Assembly (NCBI GenBank): GCA_943736015.1
Contig: OX031063.1
Coordinates: forward strand, 32,670,172-32,734,171
Direction: 5' to 3'
DNA length: 64,000 nt
Origin: Tridacna crocea
Taxonomy: Eukaryota > Mollusca > Bivalvia > Cardiida > Cardiidae
The notes under the pieces are model-generated. The model did not search any database and was not told where the DNA came from. It was given only the letters and a program-made list of their open reading frames with translations. Position numbers and translations under genes: made by a program. Below are positions 1-64,000 of the stretch, one piece after another. Positions within the stretch are counted from its first letter, which is position 1, and the number at the start of each line of letters is the position of its first letter.

Positions 1-180
1 TTAGCTAGCCTCTCAAAAGTACTTGTAATAATAGTTATGTTTATAAAAGGAGTAATTTGCATTTGGAAAATATTGTACAAAGGACTGGTTACTGAACCTA
101 CAGCAAAGTCTAGGTAGGAGCACTGGCCGCAGCGATATAATTGAAATATTGTTGAAAACGGTGTTGAACCACATGCAATC
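1..180 (+). repeat. SINE-like element alpha, 3' part only
   Basis: This is the 3' part of the element seen whole at 7044-7337; its head lies left of the window. It holds the shared core in diverged form ('ttggaaaatattgtac', then 'actggttactg') followed by a CCGC-containing stretch and 'gttgaaaacggtgtt'. The same order occurs at 447-560, which is how the relationship was recognised. Confidence 0.6.
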
Positions 181-299
181 AAGCAATTAATCGATCAACC
201 AGTTCAGTCCCCCTTCTTTTATTTACCTGATATACTTCACAGCATTTTCAAATCAACACAGTTTCTTCACCTTCCAAAGATTCTGAAAAAGGTACATGT

Positions 300-790
300 A
301 TTCGGTCCGCATTGCCCGGAACGTGAGGCACGGCTTGGCTGGTTTGTATCCCCTGCTCGGTCAGTTCTTTCCGAGAGCTGATGATACTCACTGTAGAAGC
401 ATTAATTTTTCTGAGCAGCAGTTTTGACTATAATTGTGGAAAAGTAGTCAATGGCTTGGGACGAATATCGTGAGAAGTACTAGTTACTGAAACTACAGGA
501 ACGCATAGGCAAGAGTATTGGCCCCCGCAACGTAACTCGAATATCGTTGAAAACGGTGTTAAACACATATATTTAACTCATATATTTATTTTCAGAACAC
601 TTTTTAACGCATGCCTATTAAAATAGCACGAAACCTAAATTTGTCTTTTCTGTCATTAATCTTTCCAAACTTAACAATTTCTTTATCCACAATGCAGCCC
701 TGCTACTATAAAGTAAAAGTGTCCAAATCAAATGCGCTTTCCAACTTTCCATTTAACAAGTTCTCTCTCTTTCTCTCTCTCACTGGTGAA
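300..790 (+). repeat. SINE-like element beta with AT-rich tail; probable full-length relative of the 446-bp monomer
   Basis: The head (about 300-375) lines up with the tRNA-like head of alpha: 'attcggtc' at the start, a box-B-like GGTTTGTATCC at 341-351, then 'tgctcgg' and 'tttccgag'. The body (about 440-550) carries the core ('gtcaatggcttgggacgaatat', 'gagaagtactag') and 'gttgaaaacggtgtt', as in alpha. The tail (about 600-755) matches the 446-bp monomers: 'catgcctatta', 'tctgtcatta', 'aatttctttatccaca', 'ctataaagtaaaagtgtc'. A run of five T at 406-410 would stop RNA polymerase III soon after box B, so this is probably a decayed copy. A CT-rich microsatellite (761-782) closes it. Confidence 0.6.
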
Positions 791-878
791 TAATGTTTTG
801 ATGTTTATGACATTGAGCATGTGAGACAGCAGCCAGTGGATATAATATTATGATGAGCACTAGATAAAGAAAACCATA

Positions 879-1142
879 AAAGGTTCGAGAACAGGGAGCC
901 GCTAGTTTGATTCCCGGCTCGGTCGATTTTTTCCGACAATTGCTTACAGTCATTGCGATTATGATTCATTCATTTCTCAACCTTTATCATTATTTCGACA
1001 ATTCTTATGTTGGAAAGTAGTAAGTGCCTTGGAAATGATATTGTGCGTAATACTGGTAAAAGTAATTCCAGGAGAGGATAAGTTCACGGGCCGCCGCAAT
1101 ATGAACTGAAATAATATTGTAAACGACGTTTTAACACTCTTC
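879..1142 (+). repeat. SINE-like element gamma
   Basis: Third diverged copy in the unit. The head has 'ggttcgagaacagggagcc' and a box-B-like AGTTTGATTCC at 904-914, then 'ggctcggtcg' and 'tttccgaca'. The body carries the core ('gtgccttggaaatgatattg', 'gcgtaatactggtaaaag') and a CCGCCGC stretch, and ends near 'cgacgttttaacac', matching 'aacggtgttgaacc' of alpha. Six T at 927-932, about 15 bases after box B, would end any Pol III transcript early. No flanking target-site duplication is obvious. Confidence 0.55.
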
Positions 1143-1519
1143 AATAAATACTGCATACTTATAGCATTGAGAATCTTACGTTCATTTTTATGACTTATTT
1201 TCAATAGATAGATGCTTTAGATCATAAAATGGGAACCTTGTTTTTTTCGGCATTCATTAGGTAAATAGCCGAGGTTGATACGGAATTCAAATCGGTCGTA
1301 TGTAGAAACAGGGTGATTACATAATCTTGTAAGATCTTGCCAGGATATCTAAAATGTGCAAGTAACACCATAACATTTCTTTCTGAATATTCGAAGGATA
1401 ATAGAGTTAGATTACACTCAAAATTACGGACTGAAGGATTTTTATTGTAATTTATTGTAGGAAGTACATTTTTTGGAGGAAAAGGATGGACATTGTGGTC
1501 AGAGAAGACAGTCTTTATA
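1143..1519. other. AT-rich stretch with no recognised feature
   Basis: Between element gamma and the GATA run I see no repeat internal to the unit and no credible coding. A minus-strand frame stays open across part of it and continues into the purine-rich block, but that frame is rejected as coding. The same stretch is present at the same relative position in every unit. Confidence 0.5.
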
Positions 1520-2100
1520 GATAGATAGATAGATAGATAAAATAAAAGGAAAAAAAAGCGTAAGAGATTGATAGGATGGAGAGACAAGAGTAAAGTTTGC
1601 AGGAAGGAAAGCGAAAGAAAGACAGACAGAGAGAACGTAACAGAATAGGGAGTGACAGGAAAATGAGACAGAAGATGGTGGAAGAGCGGAAGAGACAGAA
1701 AGCAACAGAGATAGGGAGACTGTGAAAGAAGGCAATGAGATACAGGTAGAAAGAGGAGAGAAATAAAAGGAGAGAAGGAAGAGAAATGGGAAGGGATAGA
1801 CAGTGATACACAGAGCGAGAGAAAGACAGAGAGCGAGAGAGACAGACAGACAGACAGAGAAACAGCGAGAGACTGAGCCTGGAAAACAGTGTTGAGAGAA
1901 AGATGAAATAAGGGACAGAGAGTAAGAAGAAAAGAGTTCGAAAGGCAGTAGATAGAAGGTGAGAGACAGAGAGAAAGAGAAACAATAGAGATACACAAAA
2001 TTAAATGGAGAGAGGTGAAGAAAGACAGAAATTGTTAAAAGAGAGACAGAAATAGATAAAGAAAAGGAGAAGAGATAGAGTGTGTGAGACGACAGAAATG
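1520..2100. repeat. Purine-rich GATA/GACA/GAGA block, (GATA)5
   Basis: It opens with five perfect GATA repeats (1520-1539) and continues for about 560 bp of plus-strand A/G-rich sequence built from GAGA, GACA and AGGA words, including a GACA run near 1850. T and C are scarce, so the minus strand is CT-rich and lacks stop codons in all three frames for about 480 bp. GATA and GACA simple repeats are a common animal microsatellite class. Long purine-rich strands can form unusual structures, but the interruptions here (GACA, TACA) make a perfect triplex unlikely. Confidence 0.9.
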
Positions 2101-2556
2101 AGGGTGATTACATTATTTCTGACTGTTCAGAATAAGAGTTAATATCATAAAGAAGACGTTGAGGACAAAGAGTTATCGGTGAAACAACAGGGGCATAGCT
2201 TTATCGTTGGATTGGAAGGAACATTCGATTAAGTAAGGTTCTAATTTGAAGGAAGCAGAATAAACAAGCTAACTGACTGGGGCTAAATTATGGGTGATAG
2301 CATAGTTGTAAATACTGGGGATATATCTGTCCAACTGATAGAAAATATTACCCACCACGGATAAAGGCATACGACATTGGTTTGAGATAATAGAAGGGAC
2401 ATTGTTACAAGATTGGAAGAAACATCGAACTGGGAATGTCTTTCACCGTCTGAAAGGAAGTACAGGGAACCAATAGAACATCTTTCCGACTGGCGTTGCA
2501 GGCTAACAGGTAGGGAGTAAAATCTCTGGAAGGACACAGGTTTATAGCTTACTGAT
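2101..2556. other. Unique-looking stretch with weak repeated words
   Basis: No gene or element recognised. Two segments about 210 bp apart, near 2210 ('gattggaaggaacattcg') and near 2420 ('gattggaagaaacatcga'), look related, and 'actggg' words recur at about 2275, 2316 and 2428, as they do further downstream. The stretch may be the decayed left end of the repeat field at 2557-3300. Confidence 0.4.
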
Positions 2557-2678
2557 ACATCTCACCAAGGCTACCATATCGATTCCTGAAATACCATAAC
2601 GCAAACTGTTGCAGTAACATCTCACCAAGGCTACCATCTCGATTCCTAAAATAACATAACGCAATCTGTTGCAGTAAC
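2557..2678 (+). repeat. 60-bp tandem duplication
   Basis: Two adjacent copies start at 2557 and 2617 with the phrase acatctcaccaaggctacc, and both end in 'ctgttgcagtaac'. They differ at a few bases ('atatcg' against 'atctcg', 'cctgaaatac' against 'cctaaaataa'). The pair is kept in all nine units, so it predates the amplification of the unit. Confidence 0.92.
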
Positions 2679-2720
2679 CAATGGACATCTTCGAACTGTT
2701 GGTACATCAACAAGGCAAGG

Positions 2721-2919
2721 GAATTGAAAACGGGTGAATTTTAAGACAGAACACAGCTTCAGGGCCTTATGGTGTATCCGAGGGACTCATAGACTGGGGG
2801 TGTTCAGTTGTTAACTTTGGAATTGAAAACGCATGCATTTTAAGACAGAACACAGCTTCAGGGCCTTATGGTGTATCAGAGGGACTCATAGACGGGGGGT
2901 GTTCAGTTGTTAACTTGGG
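2721..2919 (+). repeat. 99-bp tandem duplication
   Basis: Two adjacent copies start at 2721 and 2820 with 'gaattgaaaacg' and carry 'agacagaacacagcttca' and AGGGCC at 2761 and 2860, then 'gactgggggtgttcag'. In unit 1 the second copy reads 'gacggggg'. Copy-specific differences ('gggtgaat' against 'catgcatt', 'atccga' against 'atcaga') are kept in all units. Confidence 0.93.
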
Positions 2920-3300
2920 TTCAATGCGCTGACTAATGTTTTAAGACTGGAAGACAAGTTAAATTTGGGATTCTCTCTGAAATTACTCTTACAGATTTTA
3001 ACTACATGTCAGGAAAAAGGTGTATGGGCAAAGTGTGCAAACAATACCACGAGAGTGAGGCAGTGGTTTAGGGCCTGTGTGTACATTCAACTGAGTATAG
3101 AACAATTTCAAAGTCTACCAGGATATGAAATAGATTGGGGAAACAATCCACGAACCGAGGATACAATCTCAGGGCCCACTATGTTTGCAAAGGCCTGCTT
3201 GTTGGTTTTCGGCGCTGTGGGTATGAAATCGGCGACTGGGGGTACTGGCTTAAGAACTTGTGCAGTCAAAGAAAGGTAGAAATACAGTTTTAGGGCCTAT
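2920..3300 (+). repeat. Degenerate ~100-bp repeat with AGGGCC words
   Basis: AGGGCC recurs at 3070, 3171 and 3292, each preceded by a related phrase such as 'cagtggttt', 'acaatctc' or 'acagtttt'. Spacings are 101 and 121 bp, close to the 99-bp spacing of the duplication just upstream. GATTGGGG at 3132 and GACTGGGG at 3234 are 102 bp apart. This suggests an older ~100-bp tandem repeat of which 2721-2919 is the youngest duplication. A plus-strand frame of 104 codons crosses it but begins at TTG and is not taken as a gene. Confidence 0.5.
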
Positions 3301-3651
3301 TGACAAGCAATTTCAAGCAGTTACAGCTAAAGATGTAAACTCAAACAAAAAGAAATATTTCTCGGACTAAATGTACAACACTTCGACTTAAGGTAAATCG
3401 AGCAAACTGAAGGCGGCAACGCATGGCATTTCCTTCAAATGAAAATAAAGACAAATTTCTAGACATTTGCATTTCACAGACCGGCGATGCATCTTACAGA
3501 AACACACATATAAGGGACAAAACAATGGTTAGAAGTGGTTAATCATATCGAATAATTTCCAGAGGTAAGTTTTATCTCAGTGACTAACAGTAAACCTGAC
3601 TGAAGTACTGAAACAAGCAACTGGTTGATTCTCAAGCGTTTGTCGACTGGG
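3301..3651. other. Stretch with no recognised feature
   Basis: AT-rich sequence between the ~100-bp repeat field and the decayed 446-bp monomer. No internal repeat or coding stands out. A minus-strand frame of 75 codons overlaps its end and runs into the decayed monomer, with no recognisable product. Confidence 0.4.
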
Positions 3652-4012
3652 ATCAAAGAAGCAGCAAGTGCCAATGGGAACAATATTGTGCGAAGTACTG
3701 GTAAAAGAAGGCACTGATCTAACTCTAAATAGCGTATAACTTCTTTTTAATTGAATCCAAAACTGTCCGGAAAATATCGATCCTCTTGAAATTAACTTCT
3801 GCAAAATCTAAACACGTGGCTATCAAAATCTAGTGCTCACAAATTTCGTTTTTTCCATCATTGTTCTTTACAAACAGTTACATTGTCTTTTTGCACGTAA
3901 CAACCCTCCAGGGATAAATAATTACAGACTAGAAATGTATCTCCCCAAGTAAAATTAAAATCTGCAGACTAAGGATACATTTGCTTACACTGAGAACATG
4001 CTCTATAGAATA
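3652..4012 (+). repeat. Decayed copy of the 446-bp monomer
   Basis: The core is well preserved near 3666-3712 ('agtgccaatgggaacaatat', then 'gaagtactggtaaaag'). It lies about 426 bp before the core of the first intact monomer. The following sequence matches monomer tails loosely: 'cacgtggctatcaaaatcta' near 3813 against 'cacgtgcctattgctatcta', then 'gtttttccatcattg' and 'agtaaaattaaaatctgcag'. The join into the first intact monomer is seamless. Confidence 0.65.
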
Positions 4013-4458
4013 GATGACGATTATTGCGACAGGATTTGATCTTATCTCACCATTCGTAATTCTTTCCACGAGGCTATGTGAGAAAGGCTGCCAGTGTCAA
4101 TGGGAACAATATTGTGCGAAGTACTGGTAAAATGTTATCCCCCTGGCCTCCACCTCCCCTTACGGCCAGCCCTTTAAATCACCATCTTTTATAACAACAT
4201 GGATATCTCATTTAATGGGTCCTTCATTCAATGCAGCTAACACTTATAAAAGCCAACATGTGCCTATTACTATCTAGCACTAGTTTTTCTGTCATTACCC
4301 TTTCACAATTATTAATTTCTTCATCTACAATACAATCTTTCCTCTATATAGTAGAAATGTCAAAATCAAAACCTTTCTCAAACACCCTTCCTCAGGTGAA
4401 AGTAAAATCGCGGACTTAAGATACATTTGCTTAGACTGAGAATTCACTACATAGAATT
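4013..4458 (+). repeat. 446-bp monomer 1, type A
   Basis: Starts at 'gatgacgattattgcgacag', as all six do. The A-type signature is 'tttgatcttatctcaccatt' and 'ctttccacg'. The core lies at about 4091-4135, followed by 'ttatccccctggcctccacc'. The tail holds 'ttataacaacatgg', 'acatgtgcctatta' and 'ctgtcattacccttt', and ends with 'tcgcggactta'. Confidence 0.92.
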
Positions 4459-4905
4459 GATGACGATTATTGCGACAGGATTTAATCTTATCTCAGCACT
4501 CATAATTCTTTCGACGAGGCTATGTGAGAAAGGCTGCCAGTGTCAATGGGAACAATATTGTGCGAAGTACTGGTAAATAGTTATCACCCTGGCCTCCACC
4601 TCCCCTTACAGCCAGCCCTTTAAATCACCATCTTTTAGAACAGCATGGATATCTTATTTACTGGGTCCTTCAGTCAATGCAGGTAACACTTATTAAACCC
4701 AACACATGCCTATTACTATCTAGCACTACCTTTTCTCTCATCAGCTTCACACATTTATCAATTTCTTCATCAACAATACAATCTTTCCGCTATAAAGTAA
4801 GAATGTCAAAATCAAAAACCTTCTCAAGCTCCCTTCCTCTGGTGAAAGTAAAATCTGTAGACTAAGGATACATTTGCTTAGACTGTGAATATGCTCTACA
4901 GAATT
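4459..4905 (+). repeat. 446-bp monomer 2, type B
   Basis: The B-type signature is 'tttaatcttatctcagcact' and 'ctttcgacg', then 'ttatcaccctgg' after the core (core start about 4537). The tail is also type B: 'tttagaacagcatgg', 'cttcagtcaatgcagg' and 'ctctcatcagcttcac', where A monomers read 'ctgtcattac'. Confidence 0.92.
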
Positions 4906-5352
4906 GATGACGATTATTGCGACAGGATTTGATCTTATCTCACCATTCGTAATTCTTTCCACGAGGCTATGTGAGAAAGGCTGCCAGTGTCAATGGGAAC
5001 AATACTGTGAGAAGTACTGGTAAAATGTTATCCCCCTGGCCTCCACCTCCCCTTACAGCCAGCCCTATAAATCACCATCTTTTATAACAACATGGAAATC
5101 TCATTTAATGCATCCTTCATTCAATGCAGGTAACACTTATAAAAGCCAACATGTGCCTATTGCCATCTGGCAGTATTTTTTCTGTCATTACCCTTTAACA
5201 ATTATTAATTTCTTCATCTACAATACAATCTTTCCTCTATATAGTAGAAATGTCAAAATCAAAAACTTTCTCGAACACCCTTCCTCGGGTGAAAGTAAAA
5301 TCTGCGGACTTAAGATACATTTGCTTAGACTGAGAATTCACTACATAGAATT
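4906..5352 (+). repeat. 446-bp monomer 3, type A
   Basis: Returns to the A signature ('tttgatcttatctcaccatt', 'ctttccacg', 'ttatccccctgg'). Its core reads 'caatactgtgagaag', a change present in all units. The tail resembles monomer 1 ('acatgtgcctattgcc', 'ctgtcattacccttt') but has 'ctggcagtattt' in place of 'ctagcactagttt'. Confidence 0.92.
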
Positions 5353-5797
5353 GATGACGGTTATTGCGACAGGATTTAATCTTATCTCAGCACTCATAAT
5401 TCTTTCGACGAGGCTACGTGAGAAAGGCTGCCAGTGTCAATGGGAACAATATTGTGCGAAGTACTGGTAAAAAGTTATCACCCTGGCCTCTACCTCCCCT
5501 TACAGCCAGCTCTTTAAATCACCATCTTTTAGAACAACATGGATATCTTATTTACTGGGTCCTTCAGTCAATGCAGGTAACACTTATTAAACCCAACACA
5601 TGCCTATTACTATCTAGCACTACCTTTTCTCTCATCAGCTTCACATATTTATCAATTTCTTCATCCACAATACAATTTTTCCGCTATAAAGTAAAAGTGT
5701 CAAAATCAAAAACCTTCTCAAGCTCCCTTCCTCTGGTGAAAGTAAAATCTGTAGACTAAGGATACATTTGTTTAGACAGAATATGCTCTATAGAATT
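5353..5797 (+). repeat. 446-bp monomer 4, type B
   Basis: B signature ('tttaatcttatctcagcact', 'ctttcgacg', 'ttatcaccctgg', 'tttagaacaacatgg', 'ctctcatcagcttcac'). It is closest to monomer 2, differing by small changes such as 'gctacgtgag', 'cctctacc' and 'catattta'. Confidence 0.92.
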
Positions 5798-6244
5798 GAT
5801 GACGATTATTGCGACAGGATTTGATCTTATCTCACCATTCGCAATTCTTTCCACGAGGCTATGTGAGAAAGGCTGCCAGTGTCAATGGGAACAACATTGT
5901 GTGAAGTACTGGTAAAAAGTTATCCCCCTGGCCTCCACCTCCCCTTACAGCCAGCCCTTTAAATCACCATCTTTTATAACAACATGGATATCTCATTTAA
6001 TGGATCCTTCATTCAATGCAGCTAACACTTATTAAACCCAACACGTGCCTATTGCTATCTAGCACTAGTTTTTCTGTCATTACCATTTCACAATTATAAA
6101 TTTCTTCATCTACAATAAAATCTTTACACTATATAATAGAAGTGTCAAAATCAAAACATTCCTCAAACACTCTTCCTCTGGTGAAAGTAAAATCTGCAGA
6201 CTTAAGATACATTTGCTTAGACTGAGAATTCACTCCATAGAATT
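5798..6244 (+). repeat. 446-bp monomer 5, type A
   Basis: A signature with 'cattcgcaattc', and the core altered to 'caacattgtgtgaag'. The tail matches A monomers ('ctagcactagtttttctgtc') but shares 'attaaacccaacac' with the B monomers, hinting at past exchange between the two types. Confidence 0.9.
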
Positions 6245-6620
6245 GATGACGATTATTGCGACAGGATTTAATCTTCTCTCAGCACACATACTTCTTTCGA
6301 CGAGGCTATGTGAGAAAGGCTGCCAGTGTCAATGGGAACAATATTGTGCGAAGTACTGGTAAAAAGTTATCCCCCTGGCCTCCACCTCCCCTTACAGCCA
6401 GCCCTTTAAATCACCATCTTTTATAACAACATGCATATCGTATTTGATGGATCCTTTATTCAATGCAGGTAACACATATCGAAGCCAACACATACCTATA
6501 GAAATCTAGCACAGTATAGATATTTCGCTTTTCTGACATTAGCCTTACAAATTTAACAATTTCTTCATCCACAATACAACCTTTCCACTATTAAGTAAAA
6601 AATGATAAATTCAAAACCTT
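6245..6620 (+). repeat. 446-bp monomer 6, type B head with diverged tail (incomplete)
   Basis: The head is type B ('tttaatcttctctcagcac', 'ctttcgacg'), but after the core the sequence reads 'ttatccccctgg' and 'ttataacaacatgc', which is type A. The tail from about 6480 is strongly diverged and resembles the tail of element beta ('cttttctgacatta', 'aatttaacaatttcttcatc', 'ctattaagtaaaa'). The next expected 'gatgacg' start never comes, so the tandem run ends here. Confidence 0.8.
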
Positions 6621-7043
6621 TTCTCAAACTCACTCCCTCTCACACTCACTGCCTCTCTGTTGCTGTCTCTCGGTTTTCATGTCTCTAAAAATCCAGGGGC
6701 ACATAAGTAACATTCAAGTAATGTTCATGTCGGCCTTAAAACACCAAGAAAACAAACACATTTATCTCCACTAATAAATCCGGTATCGGCTTTGCCATCA
6801 TCATCACCAACTCAACCATCGAAACTACCATCACCATTATTATAACCATCAACATCATCATCAAAGCAATTATTAAAAAGCGTTAAAAAACACCATAGCT
6901 TTGTGTTAAGTTACAGCAAACTCTTGAACAGTTCAGGAAAACATCTTTTTCCATTCAAATCAGTTACCTTTCTTTGATTAATCTAAAAATCTTTCACACT
7001 ATTCCAAACTCAAAACTTTTCTTTGACTACAGAGATTTTCGAA
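6621..7043. repeat. CT-rich patch and imperfect CAT/ACC trinucleotide tract in AT-rich sequence
   Basis: A CT-rich patch ('ctcccctctcacactc'-like words, 6640-6680) follows the last monomer, at the position where element beta also ends in a CT-rich microsatellite. At 6796-6864 there is an imperfect trinucleotide tract of CAT and ACC words ('catcatcatcacc', 'aacatcatcatc'). The remainder up to the head of the next alpha element holds nothing I recognise. The arrangement is repeated in every unit. Confidence 0.7.
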
Positions 7044-7337
7044 AATCAATTCGGTCGATAGAGTATAGAACTTGAGACATGGGTTAGCTGGTTTGATTCC
7101 CCTACTCGGCCCTGTCTTTCCGAGGTTTGATAATAATTTTTGCGACAGGATTGATTCTTAGCTAGCCTCTCAAAAGTACTTGTAATAATAGTTATGTTTA
7201 TAAAAGGAGTAATTTGCATTTGGAAAATATTGTACAAAGGACTGGTTACTGAACCTACAGCAAAGTCTAGGTAGGAGCACTGGCCGCAGCGATATAATTG
7301 AAATATTGTTGAAAACGGTGTTGAACCACATGCAATC
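7044..7337 (+). repeat. SINE-like element alpha across the unit 1/2 boundary, tRNA-Lys-like head
   Basis: The first ~65 bases resemble a tRNA gene. 'tcaattcggtcgatagag' is comparable with the D-arm of tRNA-Lys (tcagtcggtagag). It is followed at tRNA-like spacing (about 46 bases) by GGTTTGATTCC at 7090-7100, one mismatch from the box B consensus. An unrelated-looking body with the core follows and ends near 'aacggtgttgaacc'. Five T at 7137-7141 would terminate Pol III about 40 bases after box B. I infer a decayed tRNA-derived SINE; the tRNA species assignment is tentative. The unit boundary I use is arbitrary and merely falls inside this element. Confidence 0.6.
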
Positions 7338-7456
7338 AAGCAATTAATCGATCAACCAGTTCAGTCCCCCTTCTTTTATTTACCTGATATACTTCACAGC
7401 ATTTTCAAATCAACACAGTTTCTTCACCTTCCAAAGATTCTGAAAAAGGTACATGT

Positions 7457-8299
7457 ATTCGGTCCGCATTGCCCGGAACGTGAGGCACGGCTTGGCTGGT
7501 TTGTATCCCCTGCTCGGTCAGTTCTTTCCGAGAGCTGATGATACTCACTGTAGAAGCATTAATTTTTCTGAGCAGCAGTTTTGACTATAATTGTGGAAAA
7601 GTAGTCAATGGCTTGGGACGAATATCGTGAGAAGTACTAGTTACTGAAACTACAGGAACGCATAGGCAAGAGTATTGGCCCCCGCAACGTAACTCGAATA
7701 TCGTTGAAAACGGTGTTAAACACATATAGTTAACTCATATATTTATTTTCAGAACACTTTTTAACGCATGCCTATTAAAATAGCACGAAACCTAAATTTG
7801 TCTTTTCTGTCATTAATCTTTCCAAACTTAACAATTTCTTTATCCACAATGCAGCCCTGCTACTATAAAGTAAAAGTGTCCAAATCAAATGCGCTTTCCA
7901 ACTTTCCATTTAACAAGTTCTCTCTCTTTCTCTCTCTCACTGGTGAATAATGTTTTGATGTTTATGACATTGAGCATGTGAGACAGCAGCCAGTGGATAT
8001 AATATTATGATGAGCACTAGATAAAGAAAACCATAAAAGGTTCGAGAACAGGGAGCCGCTAGTTTGATTCCCGGCTCGGTCGATTTTTTCCGACAATTGC
8101 TTACAGTCATTGCGATTATGATTCATTCATTTCTCAACCTTTATCATTATTTCGACAATTCTTATGTTGGAAAGTAGTAAGTGCCTTGGAAATGATATTG
8201 TGCGTAATACTGGTAAAAGTAATTCCAGGAGAGGATAAGTTCACGGGCCGCCGCAATATGAACTGAAATAATATTGTAAACGACGTTTTAACACTCTTC
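7457..8299 (+). repeat. SINE-like elements beta and gamma, unit 2
   Basis: Copy of 300-1142. The one difference noted is 'atatagttaac' near 7728. Confidence 0.55.
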
Positions 8300-8676
8300 A
8301 ATAAATACTGCATACTTATAGCATTGAGAATCTTACGTTCATTTTTATGACTTATTTTCAATAGATAGATGCTTTAGATCATAAAATGGGAACCTTGTTT
8401 TTTTCGGCATTCATTAGGTAAATAGCCGAGGTTGATACGGAATTCAAATCGGTCGTATGTAGAAACAGGGTGATTACATAATCTTGTAAGATCTTGCCAG
8501 GATATCTAAAATGTGCAAGTAACACCATAACATTTCTTTCTGAATATTCGAAGGATAATAGAGTTAGATTACACTCAAAATTACGGACTGAAGGATTTTT
8601 ATTGTAATTTATTGTAGGAAGTACATTTTTTGGAGGAAAAGGATGGACATTGTGGTCAGAGAAGACAGTCTTTATA

Positions 8677-9259
8677 GATAGATAGATAGATAGATAGATA
8701 AAATAAAAGGAAAAAAAAGCGTAAGAGATTGATAGGATGGAGAGACAAGAGTAAAGTTTGCAGGAAGGAAAGCGAAAGAAAGACAGACAGAGAGAACGTA
8801 ACAGAATAGGGAGTGACAGGAAAATGAGACAGAAGATGGTGGAAGAGCGGAAGAGACAGAAAGCAACAGAGATAGGGAGACTGTGAAAGAAGGCAATGAG
8901 ATACAGGTAGAAAGAGGAGAGAAATAAAAGGAGAGAAGGAAGAGAAATGGGAAGGGATAGACAGTGATACACAGAGCGAGAGAAAGACAGAGAGCGAGAG
9001 AGACAGACAGACAGACAGAGAAACAGCGAGAGACTGAGCCTGGAAAACAGTGTTGAGAGAAAGATGAAATAAGGGACAGAGAGTAAGAAGAAAAGAGTTC
9101 GAAAGGCAGTAGATAGAAGGTGAGAGACAGAGAGAAAGAGAAACAATAGAGATACACAAAATTAAATGGAGAGAGGTGAAGAAAGACAGAAATTGTTAAA
9201 AGAGAGACAGAAATAGATAAAGAAAAGGAGAAGAGATAGAGTGTGAGACGACAGAAATG
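8677..9259. repeat. Purine-rich block, (GATA)6, unit 2
   Basis: GATA run at 8677-8700. Short TG form near 9240, two bases less than unit 1. Confidence 0.9.
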
Positions 9260-9715
9260 AGGGTGATTACATTATTTCAGACTGTTCAGAATAAGAGTTA
9301 ATATCATAAAGAAGACGTTGAGGACAAAGAGTTATCGGTGAAACAACAGGGGCATAGCTTTATCGTTGGATTGGAAGGAACATTCGATTAAGTAAGGTTC
9401 TAATTTGAAGGAAGCAGAATAAACAAGCTAACTGACTGGGGCTAAATTATGGGTGATAGCATAGTTGTAAATACTGGGGATATATCTGTCCAATTGATAG
9501 AAAATATTACCCACCACGGATAAAGGCATACGACATTGGTTTGAGATAATAGAAGGGACATTGTTACAAGATTGGAAGAAACATCGAACTGGGAATGTCT
9601 TTCACCGTCTGAAAGGAAGTACAGGGAACCAATAGAACATCTTTCCGACTGGCGTTGCAGGCTAACAGGTAGGGAGTAAAATCTCTGTAAGGACACAGGT
9701 TTATAGCTTACTGAT

Positions 9716-10459
9716 ACATCTCACCAAGGCTACCATATCGATTCCTGAAATACCATAACGCAAACTGTTGCAGTAACATCTCACCAAGGCTACCATCTCG
9801 ATTCCTAAAATAACATAACGCAATCTGTTGCAGTAACCAATGGACATCTTCGAACTGTTGGTACATCAACAAGGCAAGGGAATTGAAAACGGGTGAATTT
9901 TAAGACAGAACACAGCTTCAGGGCCTTATGGTGTATCCGAGGGACTCATAGACTGGGGGTGTTCAGTTGTTAACTTTGGAATTGAAAACGCATGCATTTT
10001 AAGACAGAACACAGCTTCAGGGCCTTATGGTGTATCAGAGGGACTCATAGACTGGGGGTGTTCAGTTGTTAACTTGGGTTCAATGCGCTGACTAATGTTT
10101 TAAGACTGGAAGACAAGTTAAATTTGGGATTCTCTCTGAAATTACTCTTACAGATTTTAACTACATGTCAGGAAAAAGGTGTATGGGCAAAGTGTGCAAA
10201 CAATACCACGAGAGTGAGGCAGTGGTTTAGGGCCTGTGTGTACATTCAACTGCGTATAGAACAATTTCAAAGTCTACCAGGATATGAAATAGATTGGGGA
10301 AACAATCCACGAACCGAGGATACAATCTCAGGGCCCACTATGTTTGCAAAGGCCTGCTTGTTGGTTTTCGGCGCTGTGGGTATGAAATCGGCGACTGGGG
10401 GTACTGGCTTAAGAACTTGTGCAGTCAAAGAAAGGTAGAAATACAGTTTTAGGGCCTAT
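9716..10459 (+). repeat. 60-bp, 99-bp and ~100-bp repeat field, unit 2
   Basis: Same arrangement as 2557-3300. Here the second 99-bp copy reads 'gactggggg', like the first copy. Confidence 0.85.
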
Positions 10460-54138: not shown

Positions 54139-56746
54139 GATGACGATTATTGCGACAGGATTTGATCTTATCTCACCATTCGTAATTCTTTCCACGAGGC
54201 TATGTGAGAAAGGCTGCCAGTGTCAATGGGAACAATATTGTGCGAAGTACTGGTAAAATGTTATCCCCCTGGCCTCCACCTCCCCTTACGGCCAGCCCTT
54301 TAAATCACCATCTTTTATAACAACATGGATATCTCATTTAATGGGTCCTTCATTCAATGCAGCTAACACTTATAAAAGCCAACATGTGCCTATTACTATC
54401 TAGCACTAGTTTTTCTGTCATTACCCTTTCACAATTATTAATTTCTTCATCTACAATACAATCTTTCCTCTATATAGTAGAAATGTCAAAATCAAAACCT
54501 TTCTCAAACACCCTTCCTCAGGTGAAAGTAAAATCGCGGACTTAAGATACATTTGCTTAGACTGAGAATTCACTACATAGAATTGATGACGATTATTGCG
54601 ACAGGATTTAATCTTATCTCAGCACTCATAATTCTTTCGACGAGGCTATGTGAGAAAGGCTGCCAGTGTCAATGGGAACAATATTGTGCGAAGTACTGGT
54701 AAATAGTTATCACCCTGGCCTCCACCTCCCCTTACAGCCAGCCCTTTAAATCACCATCTTTTAGAACAGCATGGATATCTTATTTACTGGGTCCTTCAGT
54801 CAATGCAGGTAACACTTATTAAACCCAACACATGCCTATTACTATCTAGCACTACCTTTTCTCTCATCAGCTTCACACATTTATCAATTTCTTCATCAAC
54901 AATACAATCTTTCCGCTATAAAGTAAGAATGTCAAAATCAAAAACCTTCTCATGCTCCCTTCCTCTGGTGAAAGTAAAATCTGTAGACTAAGGATACATT
55001 TGCTTAGACTGTGAATATGCTCTACAGAATTGATGACGATTATTGCGACAGGATTTGATCTTATCTCACCATTCGTAATTCTTTCCACGAGGCTATGTGA
55101 GAAAGGCTGCCAGTGTCAATGGGAACAATACTGTGAGAAGTACTGGTAAAATGTTATCCCCCTGGCCTCCACCTCCCCTTACAGCCAGCCCTATAAATCA
55201 CCATCTTTTATAACAACATGGAAATCTCATTTAATGCATCCTTCATTCAATGCAGGTAACACTTATAAAAGCCAACATGTGCCTATTGCCATCTGGCAGT
55301 ATTTTTTCTGTCATTACCCTTTAACAATTATTAATTTCTTCATCTACAATACAATCTTTCCTCTATATAGTAGAAATGTCAAAATCAAAACCTTTCTCGA
55401 ACACCCTTCCTCGGGTGAAAGTAAAATCTGCGGACTTAAGATACATTTGCTTAGACTGAGAATTCACTCCATAGAATTGATGACGGTTATTGCGACAGGA
55501 TTTAATCTTATCTCAGCACTCATAATTCTTTCGACGAGGCTACGTGAGAAAGGCTGCCAGTGTCAATGGGAACAATATTGTGCGAAGTACTGGTAAAAAG
55601 TTATCACCCTGGCCTCTACCTCCCCTTACAGCCAGCCCTTTAAATCACCATCTTTTAGAACAACATGGATATCTTATTTACTGGGTCCTTCAGTCAATGC
55701 AGGTAACACTTATTAAACCCAACACATGCCTATTACTATCTAGCACTACCTTTTCTCTCATCAGCTTCACATATTTATCAATTTCTTCATCCACAATACA
55801 ATTTTTCCGCTATAAAGTAAAAGTGTCAAAATCAAAAACCTTCTCAAGCTCCCTTCCTCTGGTGAAAGTAAAATCTGTAGACTAAGGATACATTTGTTTA
55901 GACAGAATATGCTCTATAGAATTGATGACGATTATTGCGACAGGATTTGATCTTATCTCACCATTCGCAATTCTTTCCACGAGGCTATGTGAGAAAGGCT
56001 GCCAGTGTCAATGGGAACAACATTGTGTGAAGTACTGGTAAAAAGTTATCCCCCTGGCCTCCACCTCCCCTTACAGCCAGCCCTTTAAATCACCATCTTT
56101 TATAACAACATGGATATCTCATTTAATGGATCCTTCATTCAATGCAGCTAACACTTATTAAACCCAACACGTGCCTATTGCTATCTAGCACTAGTTTTTC
56201 TGTCATTACCCTTTCACAATTATAAATTTCTTCATCTACAATAAAATCTTTACACTATATAATAGAAGTGTCAAAATCAAAACATTCCTCAAACACTCTT
56301 CCTCTGGTGAAAGTAAAATCTGCAGACTTAAGATACATTTGCTTAGACTGAGAATTTACTCCATAGAATTGATGACGATTATTGCGACAGGATTTAATCT
56401 TCTCTCAGCACACATACTTCTTTCGACGAGGCTATGTGAGAAAGGCTGCCAGTGTCAATGGGAACAATATTGTGCGAAGTACTGGTAAAAAGTTATCCCC
56501 CTGGCCTCCACCTCCCCTTACAGCCAGCCCTTTAAATCACCATCTTTTATAACAACATGCATATCGTATTTGATGGATCCTTTATTCAATGCAGGTAACA
56601 CATATCGAAGCCAACACATACCTATAGAAATCTAGCACAGTATAGATATTTCGCTTTTCTGACATTAGCCTTACAAATTTAACAATTTCTTCATCCACAA
56701 TACAACCTTTCCACTATAAAGTAAAAAATGATAAATTCAAAACCTT
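54139..56746 (+). repeat. Six 446-bp monomers (ABABAB), unit 8
   Basis: B-type unit alleles. Private 'gaatttactcc' near 56352 at the end of monomer 5. Confidence 0.92.
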
Positions 56747-57169
56747 TTCTCAAACTCACTCCCTCTCACACTCACTGCCTCTCTGTTGCTGTCTCTCGGT
56801 TTTCATGTCTCTAAAAATCCAGGGGCACATAAGTAACATTCAAGTAATGTTCATGTCGGCCTTAAAACACCAAGAAAACAAACACATTTATCTCCACTAA
56901 TAAATCCGGTATCGGCTTTGCCATCATCATCACCAACTCAACCATCGAAACTACCATCACCATTATTATAACCATCAACATCATCATCAAAGCAATTATT
57001 AAAAAGCGTTAAAAAACACCATAGCTTTGTGTTAAGTTACAGCAAACTCTTGAACAGTTCAGGAAAACATCTTTTTCCATTCAAATCAGTTACCTTTCTT
57101 TGATTAATCTAAAAATCTTTCACACCATTCCAAACTCAAAACTTTTCTTTGACTACAGAGATTTTCGAA

Positions 57170-57463
57170 AATCAATTCGGTCGATAGAGTATAGAACTTG
57201 AGACATGGGTTAGCTGGTTTGATTCCCCTACTCGGCCCTGTCTTTCCGAGGTTTGATAATAATTTTTGCGACAGGATTGATTCTTAGCTAGCCTCTCAAA
57301 AGTACTTGTAATAATAGTTATGTTTATAAAAGGAGTAATTTGCATTTGGAAAATATTGTACAAAGGACTGGTTACTGAACCTACAGCAAAGTCTAGGTAG
57401 GAGCACTGGCCGCAGCGATATAATTGAAATATTGTTGAAAACGGTGTTGAACCACATGCAATC
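57170..57463 (+). repeat. SINE-like element alpha, unit 8/9 boundary
   Basis: Copy of 7044-7337; the upstream site reads 'cacaccattcc' as in units 2 and 6. Confidence 0.6.
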
Positions 57464-57582
57464 AAGCAATTAATCGATCAACCAGTTCAGTCCCCCTTCT
57501 TTTATTTACCTGATATACTTCACAGCATTTTCAAATCAACACAGTTTCTTCACCTTCCAAAGATTCTGAAAAAGGTACATGT

Positions 57583-58425
57583 ATTCGGTCCGCATTGCCC
57601 GGAACGTGAGGCACGGCTTGGCTGGTTTGTATCCCCTGCTCGGTCAGTTCTTTCCGAGAGCTGATGATACTCACTGTAGAAGCATTAATTTTTCTGAGCA
57701 GCAGTTTTGACTATAATTGTGGAAAAGTAGTCAATGGCTTGGGACGAATATCGTGAGAAGTACTAGTTACTGAAACTACAGGAACGCATAGGCAAGAGTA
57801 TTGGCCCCCGCAACGTAACTCGAATATCGTTGAAAACGGTGTTAAACACATATATTTAACTCATATATTTATTTTCAGAACACTTTTTAACGCATGCCTA
57901 TTAAAATAGCACGAAACCTAAATTTGTCTTTTCTGTCATTAATCTTTCCAAACTTAACAATTTCTTTATCCACAATGCAGCCCTGCTACTATAAAGTAAA
58001 AGTGTCCAAATCAAATGCGCTTTCCAACTTTCCATTTAACAAGTTCTCTCTCTTTCTCTCTCTCACTGGTGAATAATGTTTTGATGTTTATGACATTGAG
58101 CATGTGAGACAGCAGCCAGTGGATATAATATTATGATGAGCACTAGATAAAGAAAACCATAAAAGGTTCGAGAACAGGGAGCCGCTAGTTTGATTCCCGG
58201 CTCGGTCGATTTTTTCCGACAATTGCTTACAGTCATTGCGATTATGATTCATTCATTTCTCAACCTTTATCATTATTTCGACAATTCTTATGTTGGAAAG
58301 TAGTAAGTGCCTTGGAAATGATATTGTGCGTAATACTGGTAAAAGTAATTCCAGGAGAGGATAAGTTCACGGGCCGCCGCAATATGAACTGAAATAATAT
58401 TGTAAACGACGTTTTAACACTCTTC
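57583..58425 (+). repeat. SINE-like elements beta and gamma, unit 9
   Basis: Matches unit 1 at every site compared. A private 'atgagtta' near 58474 lies just downstream. Confidence 0.55.
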
Positions 58426-58802
58426 AATAAATACTGCATACTTATAGCATTGAGAATCTTACGTTCATTTTTATGAGTTATTTTCAATAGATAGATGCTT
58501 TAGATCATAAAATGGGAACCTTGTTTTTTTCGGCATTCATTAGGTAAATAGCCGAGGTTGATACGGAATTCAAATCGGTCGTATGTAGAAACAGGGTGAT
58601 TACATAATCTTGTAAGATCTTGCCAGGATATCTAAAATGTGCAAGTAACACCATAACATTTCTTTCTGAATATTCGAAGGATAATAGAGTTAGATTACAC
58701 TCAAAATTACGGACTGAAGGATTTTTATTGTAATTTATTGTAGGAAGTACATTTTTTGGAGGAAAAGGATGGACATTGTGGTCAGAGAAGACAGTCTTTA
58801 TA

Positions 58803-59387
58803 GATAGATAGATAGATAGATAGATAAAATAAAAGGAAAAAAAAGCGTAAGAGATTGATAGGATGGAGAGACAAGAGTAAAGTTTGCAGGAAGGAAAGCG
58901 AAAGAAAGACAGACAGAGAGAACGTAACAGAATAGGGAGTGACAGGAAAATGAGACAGAAGATGGTGGAAGAGCGGAAGAGACAGAAAGCAACAGAGATA
59001 GGGAGACTGTGAAAGAAGGCAATGAGATACAGGTAGAAAGAGGAGAGAAATAAAAGGAGAGAAGGAAGAGAAATGGGAAGGGATAGACAGTGATACACAG
59101 AGCGAGAGAAAGACAGAGAGCGAGAGAGACAGACAGACAGACAGAGAAACAGCGAGAGACTGAGCCTGGAAAACAGTGTTGAGAGAAAGATGAAATAAGG
59201 GACAGAGAGTAAGAAGAAAAGAGTTCGAAAGGCAGTAGATAGAAGGTGAGAGACAGAGAGAAAGAGAAACAATAGAGATACACAAAATTAAATGGAGAGA
59301 GGTGAAGAAAGACAGAAATTGTTAAAAGAGAGACAGAAATAGATAAAGAAAAGGAGAAGAGATAGAGTGTGTGAGACGACAGAAATG
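58803..59387. repeat. Purine-rich block, (GATA)6, unit 9
   Basis: GATA run at 58803-58826 with the long TG form. Confidence 0.9.
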
Positions 59388-59843
59388 AGGGTGATTACAT
59401 TATTTCTGACTGTTCAGAATAAGAGTTAATATCATAAAGAAGACGTTGAGGACAAAGAGTTATCGGTGAAACAACAGGGGCATAGCTTTATCGTTGGATT
59501 GGAAGGAACATTCGATTAAGTAAGGTTCTAATTTGAAGGAAGCAGAATAAACAAGCTAACTGACTGGGGCTAAATTATGGGTGATAGCATAGTTGTAAAT
59601 ACTGGGGATATATCTGTCCAACTGATAGAAAATATTACCCACCACGGATAAAGGCATACGACATTGGTTTGAGATAATAGAAGGGACATTGTTACAAGAT
59701 TGGAAGAAACATCGAACTGGGAATGTCTTTCACCGTCTGAAAGGAAGTACAGGGAACCAATAGAACATCTTTCCGACTGGCGTTGCAGGCTAACAGGTAG
59801 GGAGTAAAATCTCTGGAAGGACACAGGTTTATAGCTTACTGAT

Positions 59844-60587
59844 ACATCTCACCAAGGCTACCATATCGATTCCTGAAATACCATAACGCAAACTGTTGCA
59901 GTAACATCTCACCAAGGCTACCATCTCGATTCCTAAAATAACATAACGCAATCTGTTGCAGTAACCAATGGACATCTTCGAACTGTTGGTACATCAACAA
60001 GGCAAGGGAATTGAAAACGGGTGAATTTTAAGACAGAACACAGCTTCAGGGCCTTATGGTGTATCCGAGGGACTCATAGACTGGGGGTGTTCAGTTGTTA
60101 ACTTTGGAATTGAAAACGCATGCATTTTAAGACAGAACACAGCTTCAGGGCCTTATGGTGTATCAGAGGGACTCATAGACTGGGGGTGTTCAGTTGTTAA
60201 CTTGGGTTCAATGCGCTGACTAATGTTTTAAGACTGGAAGACAAGTTAAATTTGGGATTCTCTCTGAAATTACTCTTACAGATTTTAACTACATGTCAGG
60301 AAAAAGGTGTATGGGCAAAGTGTGCAAACAATACCACGAGAGTGAGGCAGTGGTTTAGGGCCTGTGTGTACATTCAACTGAGTATAGAACAATTTCAAAG
60401 TCTACCAGGATATGAAATAGATTGGGGAAACAATCCACGAACCGAGGATACAATCTCAGGGCCCACTATGTTTGCAAAGGCCTGCTTGTTGGTTTTCGGC
60501 GCTGTGGGTATGAAATCGGCGACTGGGGGTACTGGCTTAAGAACTTGTGCAGTCAAAGAAAGGTAGAAATACAGTTTTAGGGCCTAT
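59844..60587 (+). repeat. 60-bp, 99-bp and ~100-bp repeat field, unit 9
   Basis: The second 99-bp copy reads 'gactggggg', as in units 2, 3, 7 and 8. Confidence 0.85.
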
Positions 60588-61299
60588 TGACAAGCAATTT
60601 CAAGCAGTTACAGCTAAAGATGTAAACTCAAACAAAAAGAAATATTTCTCGGACTAAATGTACAACACTTCGACTTAAGGTAAATCGAGCAAACTGAAGG
60701 CGGCAACGCATGGCATTTCCTTCAAATGAAAATAAAGACAAATTTCTAGACATTTGCATTTCACAGACCGGCGATGCATCTTACAGAAACACACATATAA
60801 GGGACAAAACAATGGTTAGAAGTGGTTAATCATATCGAATAATTTCCAGAGGTAAGTTTTATCTCAGTGACTAACAGTAAACCTGACTGAAGTACTGAAA
60901 CAAGCAACTGGTTGATTCTCAAGCGTTTGTCGACTGGGATCAAAGAAGCAGCAAGTGCCAATGGGAACAATATTGTGCGAAGTACTGGTAAAAGAAGGCA
61001 CTGATCTAACTCTAAATAGCGTATAACTTCTTTTTAATTGAATCCAAAACTGTCCGGAAAATATCGATCCTCTTGAAATTAACTTCTGCAAAATCTAAAC
61101 ACGTGGCTATCAAAATCTAGTGCTCACAAATTTCGTTTTTTCCATCATTGTTCTTTACAAACAGTTACATTGTCTTTTTGCACATAACAACCCTCCAGGG
61201 ATAAATAATTACAGACTAGAAATGTATCTCCCCAAGTAAAATTAAAATCTGCAGACTAAGGATACATTTGCTTACACTGAGAACATGCTCTATAGAATA

Positions 61300-63907
61300 G
61301 ATGACGATTATTGCGACAGGATTTGATCTTATCTCACCATTCGTAATTCTTTCCACGAGGCTATGTGAGAAAGGCTGCCAGTGTCAATGGGAACAATATT
61401 GTGCGAAGTACTGGTAAAATGTTATCCCCCTGGCCTCCACCTCCCCTTACGGCCAGCCCTTTAAATCACCATCTTTTATAACAACATGGATATCTCATTT
61501 AATGGGTCCTTCATTCAATGCAGCTAACACTTATAAAAGCCAACATGTGCCTATTACTATCTAGCACTAGTTTTTCTGTCATTACCCTTTCACAATTATT
61601 AATTTCTTCATCTACAATACAATCTTTCCTCTATATAGTAGAAATGTCAAAATCAAAACCTTTCTCAAACACCCTTCCTCAGGTGAAAGTAAAATCGCGG
61701 ACTTAAGATACATTTGCTTAGACTGAGAATTCACTACATAGAATTGATGACGATTATTGCGACAGGATTTAATCTTATCTCAGCACTCATAATTCTTTCG
61801 ACGAGGCTATGTGAGAAAGGCTGCCAGTGTCAATGGGAACAATATTGTGCGAAGTACTGGTAAATAGTTATCACCCTGGCCTCCACCTCCCCTTACAGCC
61901 AGCCCTTTAAATCACCATCTTTTAGAACAGCATGGATATCTTATTTACTGGGTCCTTCAGTCAATGCAGGTAACACTTATTAAACCCAACACATGCCTAT
62001 TACTATCTAGCACTACCTTTTCTCTCATCAGCTTCACACATTTATCAATTTCTTCATCAACAATACAATCTTTCCGCTATAAAGTAAGAATGTCAAAATC
62101 AAAAACCTTCTCATGCTCCCTTCCTCTGGTGAAAGTAAAATCTGTAGACTAAGGATACATTTGCTTAGACTGTGAATATGCTCTACAGAATTGATGACGA
62201 TTATTGCGACAGGATTTGATCTTATCTCACCATTCGTAATTCTTTCCACGAGGCTATGTGAGAAAGGCTGCCAGTGTCAATGGGAACAATACTGTGAGAA
62301 GTACTGGTAAAATGTTATCCCCCTGGCCTCCACCTCCCCTTACAGCCAGCCCTATAAATCACCATCTTTTATAACAACATGGAAATCTCATTTAATGCAT
62401 CCTTCATTCAATGCAGGTAACACTTATAAAAGCCAACATGTGCCTATTGCCATCTGGCAGTATTTTTTCTGTCATTACCCTTTAACAATTATTAATTTCT
62501 TCATCTACAATACAATCTTTCCTCTATATAGTAGAAATGTCAAAATCAAAACCTTTCTCGAACACCCTTCCTCGGGTGAAAGTAAAATCTGCGGACTTAA
62601 GATACATTTGCTTAGACTGAGAATTCACTCCATAGAATTGATGACGGTTATTGCGACAGGATTTAATCTTATCTCAGCACTCATAATTCTTTCGACGAGG
62701 CTACGTGAGAAAGGCTGCCAGTGTCAATGGGAACAATATTGTGCGAAGTACTGGTAAAAAGTTATCACCCTGGCCTCTACCTCCCCTTACAGCCAGCCCT
62801 TTAAATCACCATCTTTTAGAACAACATGGATATCTTATTTACTGGGTCCTTCAGTCAATGCAGGTAACACTTATTAAACCCAACACATGCCTATTACTAT
62901 CTAGCACTACCTTTTCTCTCATCAGCTTCACATATTTATCAATTTCTTCATCCACAATACAATTTTTCCGCTATAAAGTAAAAGTGTCAAAATCAAAAAC
63001 CTTCTCAAGCTCCCTTCCTCTGGTGAAAGTAAAATCTGTAGACTAAGGATACATTTGTTTAGACAGAATATGCTCTATAGAATTGATGACGATTATTGCG
63101 ACAGGATTTGATCTTATCTCACCATTCGCAATTCTTTCCACGAGGCTATGTGAGAAAGGCTGCCAGTGTCAATGGGAACAACATTGTGTGAAGTACTGGT
63201 AAAAAGTTATCCCCCTGGCCTCCACCTCCCCTTACAGCCAGCCCTTTAAATCACCATCTTTTATAACAACATGGATATCTCATTTAATGGATCCTTCATT
63301 CAATGCAGCTAACACTTATTAAACCCAACACGTGCCTATTGCTATCTAGCACTAGTTTTTCTGTCATTACCCTTTCACAATTATAAATTTCTTCATCTAC
63401 AATAAAATCTTTACACTATATAATAGAAGTGTCAAAATCAAAACATTCCTCAAACACTCTTCCTCTGGTGAAAGTAAAATCTGCAGACTTAAGATACATT
63501 TGCTTAGACTGAGAATTCACTCCATAGAATTGATGACGATTATTGCGACAGGATTTAATCTTCTCTCAGCACACATACTTCTTTCGACGAGGCTATGTGA
63601 GAAAGGCTGCCAGTGTCAATGGGAACAATATTGTGCGAAGTACTGGTAAAAAGTTATCCCCCTGGCCTCCACCTCCCCTTACAGCCAGCCCTTTAAATCA
63701 CCATCTTTTATAACAACATGCATATCGTATTTGATGGATCCTTTATTCAATGCAGGTAACACATATCGAAGCCAACACATACCTATAGAAATCTAGCACA
63801 GTATAGATATTTCGCTTTTCTGACATTAGCCTTACAAATTTAACAATTTCTTCATCCACAATACAACCTTTCCACTATAAAGTAAAAAATGATAAATTCA
63901 AAACCTT
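61300..63907 (+). repeat. Six 446-bp monomers (ABABAB), unit 9
   Basis: B-type unit alleles: 'catgctc' near 62113, 'cactccatag' near 62628 and 'taccctttc' near 63370. Complete; the window edge falls shortly after it. Confidence 0.92.
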
Positions 63908-64000
63908 TTCTCAAACTCACTCCCTCTCACACTCACTGCCTCTCTGTTGCTGTCTCTCGGTTTTCATGTCTCTAAAAATCCAGGGGCACATAAGTAACAT

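Follow-up and report, generated by a model that had tools for sequence, protein, structure and literature searches.

The 64,000-bp stretch of DNA analysed here (the window) is very probably part of a non-coding megasatellite (macrosatellite) family, whose repeated block combines a ~4.1-kb body with 447-bp satellite monomers in variable number. A period of 7,155-7,165 bp was found across the entire window, which held 8.94 head-to-tail copies and just 6,839 distinct 21-mers; the top 21-mer spacings were 7165, 7161 and 7157. Phasing by an anchor delimited nine copies, one partial and eight complete:

1..6688 (+), copy c0, partial, cut by the start of the window
6689..13847 (+), copy c1, 7159 bp, used as reference for module positions
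13848..21008 (+), copy c2, 7161 bp
21009..28163 (+), copy c3, 7155 bp
28164..35320 (+), copy c4, 7157 bp
35321..42485 (+), copy c5, 7165 bp
42486..49650 (+), copy c6, 7165 bp
49651..56814 (+), copy c7, 7164 bp
56815..63975 (+), copy c8, 7161 bp, its end deduced from the 25 anchor bases closing the window

As stated in the original prediction, the 7.16-kb unit filled the window, and no boundary of the array was found within the 64 kb; the edges lie outside. The unit length falls in the size range of megasatellites (~2 to >12 kb). Identity, with only substitutions counted, was 99.776-99.972% in 36 of 36 copy pairs; the closest pairs still differed by 2, and every copy was distinguishable. It is extremely unlikely that one or few copies were multiplied during assembly, since all 36 pairs differed, the copies of the larger array formed a nested phylogeny over ~200 kb, one edge copy carried a transposon-like insertion of 1,095 bp that was absent at the homologous site in c1, and arrays on other contigs had unit spacings of their own. 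The earlier claim that the copies are distinct was therefore confirmed.

The window contained 29 biallelic SNPs, 15 of them informative, and the four-gamete test failed in 42 of the 105 informative pairs. Therefore, variants were reshuffled among copies, although these failures could in part reflect recurrent mutation or assembly mosaicism. Within the window, neighbouring copies were not more alike than distant ones (permutation p 0.51). Copies at a separation of four differed at 8.2 positions versus a mean of 10.3 (p 0.083).

The following modules were delimited in c1:

6960..8305 (+), one ~400-bp repeat present as three old, diverged relatives (~65% identical), which have a ~120-bp core in common with the 447-bp monomers
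8700..9263 (+), purine-rich tract of 564 bp with 82% purine (its maximal-segment score was 164, whereas none of 500 shuffles exceeded 24)
9290..10780 (+), module serving as genome probe and for the copy tree
9716..9837 (+), tandem duplicate of a 60-bp sequence
9879..10075 (+), tandem duplicate of a 99-bp sequence, with one copy fewer in the unit at C3:12.84 Mb
10820..11184 (+), first stretch of the 447-bp array, degenerate in part
11185..13863 (+), six 445-447-bp monomers, m1-m6, the last of which, as cut, reaches 16 bp into the next unit

The predicted unit length thus stood, but the unit was not a simple monomer: it was a composite of the ~4.1-kb body and six copies of an older 447-bp satellite in A/B order. 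Monomers m1, m3 and m5 belonged to type A (93-96% identical inside the unit) and m2 and m4 to type B (97%), whereas m6 was a diverged edge monomer (80-82%). The window contained 54 monomer cores, that is, 6 x 9. Between units, monomers that occupy equivalent positions were 99.74-100% alike, versus 80-97% for monomers inside one unit, which is the pattern of a higher-order repeat and sets the register of exchange in the window at 7.16 kb. A B-box-like string in the ~400-bp repeat had suggested a tRNA/SINE origin of these repeats; this origin was not supported, as Rfam (E<=10, 7030-8320) gave no match, tRNA included, and only the string itself spoke for it.

The gene content of the unit was studied. 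Rfam at the gathering threshold gave no match in the whole window, and relaxed searching (E<=5, 6600-14300) yielded just four weak snoRNA-family matches (E 0.96-3.9). ARAGORN found no tRNA. Pfam searches of 93 stop-free segments of at least 38 codons (6689-14100) returned nothing convincing (11 families matched once each, best E 0.019), nor did those of a smaller set of 10 segments. The longest ATG frame was 120 aa versus a 95th percentile of 135 aa in 200 shuffles of the unit minus the purine tract, and the frame at 10073-10435 was broken in the related C3 unit. In the left flank of the array, 22 frames of at least 90 codons were present, and Pfam analysis of 10 of these gave one weak match. 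Relatives of the unit were absent from four of five scans of viral contigs and one of two scans of genome contigs; the other two scans yielded 6 and 1 stretches, which, among the matches listed, matched the unit over only 19-30 nt. Judged by its sequence, the unit is apparently gene-free, although it might hold short exons or an RNA gene outside Rfam. The repeats, the gene-poverty and the CpG depletion point to a eukaryotic host. These results agree with the earlier statements that the array has no gene and is not recognisable as rDNA, a histone cluster or another known tandem gene array. Repeat lengths of rDNA and histone genes span a range that includes ~7 kb, and the unit falls within it. 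Additionally, a 5.9-kb potato satellite, 2D8, is spacer-related according to an excerpt of PMC8122249. Nevertheless, if a known gene for an RNA or a protein made up the array, each unit would hold that gene, and with no Rfam match at the gathering threshold, no tRNA and no histone or other convincing domain, such an array, or a ribosomal intergenic spacer, is hardly credible.

The search of the host assembly proposed with the original prediction located the family well beyond the array on contig C8. Tags of the unit were found at 240 places (150 + 90), versus 0 + 0 in the reversed control; 100 of these were listed, all exact, and places with 1-3 mismatches were counted only. Genome scans scored the best 40 of 1225 candidates (169 matches), 40 of 569 and 40 of 625. 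Because the listing of places is partial, the list of arrays is a minimum. At least seven contigs carried the family (C1, C3, C4, C6, C7, C8 and C13; 7 of 31 among the matches listed), in both orientations and in groups of 1 to ~40 copies among the matches listed; the single tag on C6 is an exact place and may have inexact neighbours. Candidates for isolated places are C6:4.85 Mb and C13:17.76 Mb. Unit lengths and spacings were array-specific. The unit at C3:12.84 Mb, the sole one compared in full, was 8,075 bp long and 91% identical over its whole length. Head-to-tail order was read directly at C3:12.84 Mb, at C3:29.45 Mb and in the array of the window. At C8:15.06 Mb, the 447-bp array adjoined the body on either side, and at least 12 monomers followed it. 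On the remaining contigs the family was recognised from tags and tag spacing. Macrosatellites in the narrow sense are confined to one or few chromosomes; with at least seven contigs, this family fits the multi-chromosome megasatellite type.

The array that includes the window was finite. Its head-to-tail, near-identical units (99.78-99.97% in the window) formed at least 40 copies over ~306 kb (C8:32,621,076-32,927,208), of which 67 kb (C8:32,845,001-32,912,000) is known by probe spacing and the rest by sequence. A young homogeneous interior was bordered by older copies on both sides. In a nested tree of 32 of the 42 copies counted on C8:32.6-32.9 Mb (those left out are one truncated copy close to 32,812,000 and nine lying in 32,845,001-32,912,000), 25 interior copies grouped with support of 100/99. 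Two flanking copies joined next (100/97); they lie 188 kb apart yet had 4 differences in 1491 bp. The bootstrap had not settled (correlation 0.987), and the support of the right-hand block was weak (60/75).

Since this array lies near the middle of its contig (53.9% along it) and measures ~306 kb, it was considered as the centromere of that chromosome, which seems quite unlikely. CENP-B-like motifs were not in excess (8 versus ~7.3 expected from 60 shuffles). Among the matches listed, the family occupied at least three places on C8 (15.06, 20.10-20.22 and 32.6-32.9 Mb), two on C3 and two on C13, which argues against a simple centromere, as does its presence on 7 of the 31 contigs among these matches. 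In the parts of the sources considered, a young core with older flanks is described for human active arrays (PMC11266386), and the centromeres of sub/metacentric macrochromosomes in chicken usually have tandem repeats specific to the chromosome (PMC9974502). The A/B monomer order, the array-specific unit, the young core and the old flanks likewise resemble layered higher-order centromeric satellites as portrayed there (PMC11266386, PMC9974502); unlike them, the family has a ~4.1-kb body beside the satellite and several sites per contig.

The block could also be a non-autonomous transposable element, for example of the rolling-circle type or enclosing a satellite; it would insert as body plus 447-bp array and then be amplified in tandem. 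The scatter of the block or its tags over at least seven contigs, in both orientations and in groups of 1 to ~40 (among the matches listed), would suit such an element, and satellites are documented to arise from tandem arrays within elements (PMC7004042, in excerpt). The satellites born inside LTR-retrotransposons in that excerpt (PMC7004042) likewise join a tandem array to a longer dispersed body; in contrast to them, no retrotransposon domains were found in the body (Pfam, 93 segments). Neither transposase, reverse transcriptase nor Rep domain was found in these segments, although a non-autonomous element needs none. The unit had no long terminal inverted repeats (its longest inverted pair was 35 nt at 74%), the body at C8:15.06 Mb was again flanked by the 447-bp array with no free end seen, and the main C8 array started at unit position 7929, adjoining an inverted 106-bp piece, with no evident element end. 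An element origin is considered unlikely.

A functional macrosatellite locus, with a putative ncRNA or DXZ4-like chromatin organiser, would agree with the unit size and tandem form, the strand-asymmetric purine tract and the folding of RNA from eight pieces, two of which were mildly more stable than shuffles (z -2.3, -2.0) while six lay between -1.2 and +1.4. However, identity between the window unit and the C3:12.84 Mb unit was 76-97% per 200-bp bin with no one sharply conserved island, and SNPs were evenly spread along the unit (KS p 0.96). The unit had a GC content of 38% and CpG at 0.58 of expectation, whereas DXZ4 is GC-rich (PMC3218863, in part) and has a promoter and a CTCF site (PMC3218863, PMC8122249, both in part). 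Such a locus is very unlikely. Because the centromeric, element and functional explanations are all compatible with the megasatellite reading, their probabilities overlap with it.

The megasatellite reading has close precedents in human megasatellites as far as PMC2588610 was covered: ~6.0-kb Acro repeats in a 51.4-kb array, 5.4-kb repeats with Mer33 in each in a 54.5-kb array, 12-kb repeats on chromosome 8 in an array of 600 kb to 1.7 Mb, and more than 25 arrays of one family (from the context, seemingly the LTR-based one of ~3.5 kb) distributed over 11 chromosomes. A unit this long, called uncommon in the original prediction, thus has documented counterparts elsewhere. Compared by description, these families share with the present one a multi-kb unit, tandem order, high identity, higher-order structure and presumed unequal crossing over, and one of them also occupies several chromosomes. 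The ~306-kb array is larger than the human 5.4- and 6.0-kb-unit arrays and smaller than the 12-kb-unit array, and its nested part is a 447-bp satellite in place of recognised transposon pieces (PMC2588610, in part). The macrosatellites D4Z4, DXZ4 and RS447 are also tandem, with units of 2 to >12 kb; unlike these, the family is found at many loci, and in contrast to the conserved open frames of D4Z4 and RS447 it has no open frame beyond chance (PMC3218863, PMC8122249, in the portions considered).

In the megasatellite reading, the unit of turnover would be the body together with its 447-bp array, and unequal crossing over, gene conversion or both would keep the copies locally homogeneous. Arrays would grow from within through local tandem expansion ("layered expansion"), and spread between sites may have involved segmental duplication, an extrachromosomal circle or transposition. 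The role of the family may be structural or heterochromatic, or there may be none. The many sites on at least seven contigs exceed what a strictly local satellite would require, which hints at mobility. It is conceivable, though doubtful, that the megasatellite is self-spreading: the gene-free composite block would pass as a whole from one chromosome to another, perhaps through extrachromosomal circles or with borrowed transposition machinery, and seed arrays that grow from the middle, each fixing its own unit length.

The array is a real, well-resolved example of an already known kind of giant satellite DNA, and the window taken singly is otherwise ordinary repeat DNA. Within one assembly, however, several arrays of the family are resolved; each has its own unit length, and the array on C8 is clearly layered old-young-old. 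The family is therefore well suited to tests of how satellites with long units arise, spread and become homogeneous, with no reliance on short monomers, which are hard to assemble.

The window was found to be a single unbroken tandem array over all 64 kb, with a period of 7,155-7,165 bp by both autocorrelation and 21-mer spacing. Phasing on an anchor occurring once per unit gave 8.94 copies, eight whole and one partial, which bore out the original prediction of a 7.16-kb unit repeated without interruption. Copy identity, counted on substitutions only, was 99.776-99.972% for 36/36 pairs in the window. The closest pairs differed by 2 substitutions and all 36 pairs fell below 100%, so the copies were distinct by small differences, as had been proposed. 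The 29 biallelic substitutions among the window copies (11/29 transitions) were spread evenly along the unit (KS p 0.96), and the few indels lay chiefly in an ATAG microsatellite.

The unit is composite, not a simple monomer, and consists of a body of about 4.1 kb and an array of a 447-bp satellite. Its features are as follows, at positions of the reference copy c1 (6689-13847):

8700-9263, strand-asymmetric: purine-rich tract, 564 bp, 82% purine
10,820-13,847: 447-bp satellite part, ~42% of the unit, six whole monomers (m1-m6)
body: three old ~400-bp repeat copies, ~65% alike, with a ~120-bp core in common with the 447-bp monomer
body: 60-bp and 99-bp duplications

The 447-bp part is organised as a higher-order array of dimers, and its edge has diverged. 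Monomers m1, m3 and m5 were mutually 93-96% identical, m2 and m4 were 97% identical, and the two types shared 86-89% identity; the edge monomer m6 was only 80-82% identical to every other monomer. Same-position monomers of different units in the window were 99.74-100% identical, and the six monomer cores were kept in 9/9 copies (54 in total). Therefore, exchange in the window proceeds in the 7.16-kb register and not in the 447-bp one. Because the old ~400-bp repeats of the body share a core with the 447-bp monomer, it may be concluded that an older repeat family belonging to the block itself supplied part of it.

All four combinations were present in 42/105 pairs of informative sites in the window (four-gamete test), and neighbouring copies were not more similar than distant ones (p 0.51). 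This pattern is compatible with unequal exchange or with gene conversion, although some of the four-combination pairs may stem from recurrent mutation or from mosaics in the assembly. There is a hint that copies four apart are more similar (p 0.083).

The unit had also been described as gene-poor, and no gene was found in the following searches. Rfam at the gathering threshold gave zero matches in the whole window; at relaxed settings, the matches in 6600-14300 were limited to four weak ones, from two snoRNA families (E 0.96-3.9). ARAGORN found no tRNA genes. One unit contains 93 segments that run for 38 codons or more free of stops, and among these no Pfam match was convincing (11 families, one match apiece, best E 0.019). 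The longest ATG frame in the unit, 120 aa, did not exceed chance (shuffle 95th percentile, 135), and the frame at 10073-10435 was interrupted in the related C3 unit. Long antisense frames at 8,380-9,270 lacked stops because they overlie the 564-bp purine tract, which could favour a triplex or an RNA-DNA hybrid if transcribed. GC content was 38%, and CpG stood at 0.58 of expectation.

Related arrays were sought in the genome assembly (1.049 Gb, 31 contigs). A 47-bp tag with up to 3 mismatches occurred at 240 places (150 + 90), compared with 0 for a reversed control; 100 of the 240 were located, all exact, and sites not fetched are represented by the tag or probe alone. Sites come from the matches listed, so the family extent is a lower bound. 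At C3:12.84 Mb, the whole unit was present module by module at 91% identity to the window unit, and neighbours were 100% identical over 1,925 bp; probe spacing indicated that 16 copies follow one another at C3:12.73-12.86 Mb, at intervals of ~8.53 kb and then ~8.08 kb. The C3:29.45 Mb unit was 89-92% identical in longer pieces, with a shorter 447-bp array. Self-comparison of this locus revealed a ~157-bp tandem repeat between unit parts (L039:4883-5829). At C8:15.06 Mb, the body was followed by at least 12 monomers and also preceded by a 447-bp array.

Among the 100 tags listed, 18 lay at C7:12.38-12.51 Mb, 16 at C8:20.10-20.22 Mb, 9 at C3:29.42-29.47 Mb, 3 on C4 and one at C6:4.85 Mb. Listed tag spacings at C7:12.43-12.51 Mb alternated (~6,492/5,844, then ~6,093/7,129 bp); therefore, two units make one higher-order unit of 12-13 kb. 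Further C3-unit probe matches among those listed lay at C13:17.76, C4:16.94-16.96 and C1:31.2 Mb, the last with body parts rearranged in the 2.5-kb piece read. At C13:42.67-42.82 Mb, 13 minus and 5 plus matches were listed. The two oppositely oriented groups (42.667-42.819 Mb), with nearest probe positions ~5.1 kb apart, possibly form a large palindrome.

The units at C3:12.84 (L037:4123-4304), C8:15.06 (L040:770-971) and C1:31.2 Mb (L042:1289-1484) are longer by ~180-200 bp at unit position 7730, a stretch that is missing from the window's array and the C3:29.45 Mb unit and that marks the history of the arrays. The differences that separate the C8 unit from the C3 unit were spread throughout (76-97% identity per 200-bp bin), with no sharply conserved island in these bins. 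This fits non-coding DNA whose sequence is constrained weakly or not at all, although the unit may still have a structural role. An origin of the block as a transposable element is kept alive by its dispersal over contigs, but has neither domains nor long terminal repeats nor free ends to speak for it.

On C8 the window occupies 32,670,172-32,734,171. The array containing it began at 32,621,076, mid-unit (position 7929), adjoining an inverted 106-bp piece; no unit pieces occurred in the 40.9 kb read to its left. A fragment in this flank (L017:4633-5043) matched Pfam YqaJ (E 9.4e-05), and nine other left-flank frames gave zero Pfam matches. On the right, where reading extended to 32,932,000, the array decayed into degraded copies, and the last match seen ended at 32,927,208. 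Module 9290-10780 of the body had at least 40 matches in the array, or 42 with two further tag places. Most of the array consisted of 7.16-kb units, followed by 6,647-bp units (missing ~517 bp of the 447-bp array) together with one 4.2-kb unit, and finally 7.19-7.22-kb units; C8:32,845,001-32,912,000 is represented by probe positions alone. One left-edge copy carried a 1,095-bp insert at a TA site (C8:32627145-32628239; L020:7145-8239). Its inverted ends match at 23/24 bases, and it is probably a non-autonomous DNA transposon.

Phylogenetic analysis of the 1,491-bp module covered 32 C8 copies, with C3 sequence as the outgroup. With the bootstrap not fully settled, 25 interior copies formed one clade (100/99), next to which branched two flanking copies (100/97). 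These copies, at 32,629,790 (left) and 32,818,074 (right), are 188 kb apart and differ by just 4 substitutions. Outside them fell the outermost left copy and also the block on the right, whose own grouping had weak support (60/75). This nesting is a pattern of expansion from within, termed layered expansion for human centromeric satellite in PMC11266386. The age layering, together with the mid-contig position of the array (53.9%), keeps alive the view that it is a centromere, a view weakened by the several family places on each of C8, C3 and C13.

Long units have precedents in earlier papers, which describe human tandem arrays with 5.4-, 6.0- and 12-kb units, one family having >25 arrays on 11 chromosomes (PMC2588610), a macrosatellite unit range of 2 to >12 kb (PMC3218863), a definition by monomers >500 bp (PMC12692304) and a plant 5.9-kb satellite homologous to ribosomal spacer (PMC8122249). 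The family was not recognised in the portions available of the literature on octopus, cephalopod and mollusc satellites, macrosatellites and long-unit satellites, and it is not claimed to be unpublished. The megasatellite, transposable-element and centromere readings overlap, so that their probabilities may add up to something other than one. The sequence is best explained as a non-coding megasatellite family that turns over in units of the body plus the 447-bp array, and the data support local homogenisation and inside-out expansion.
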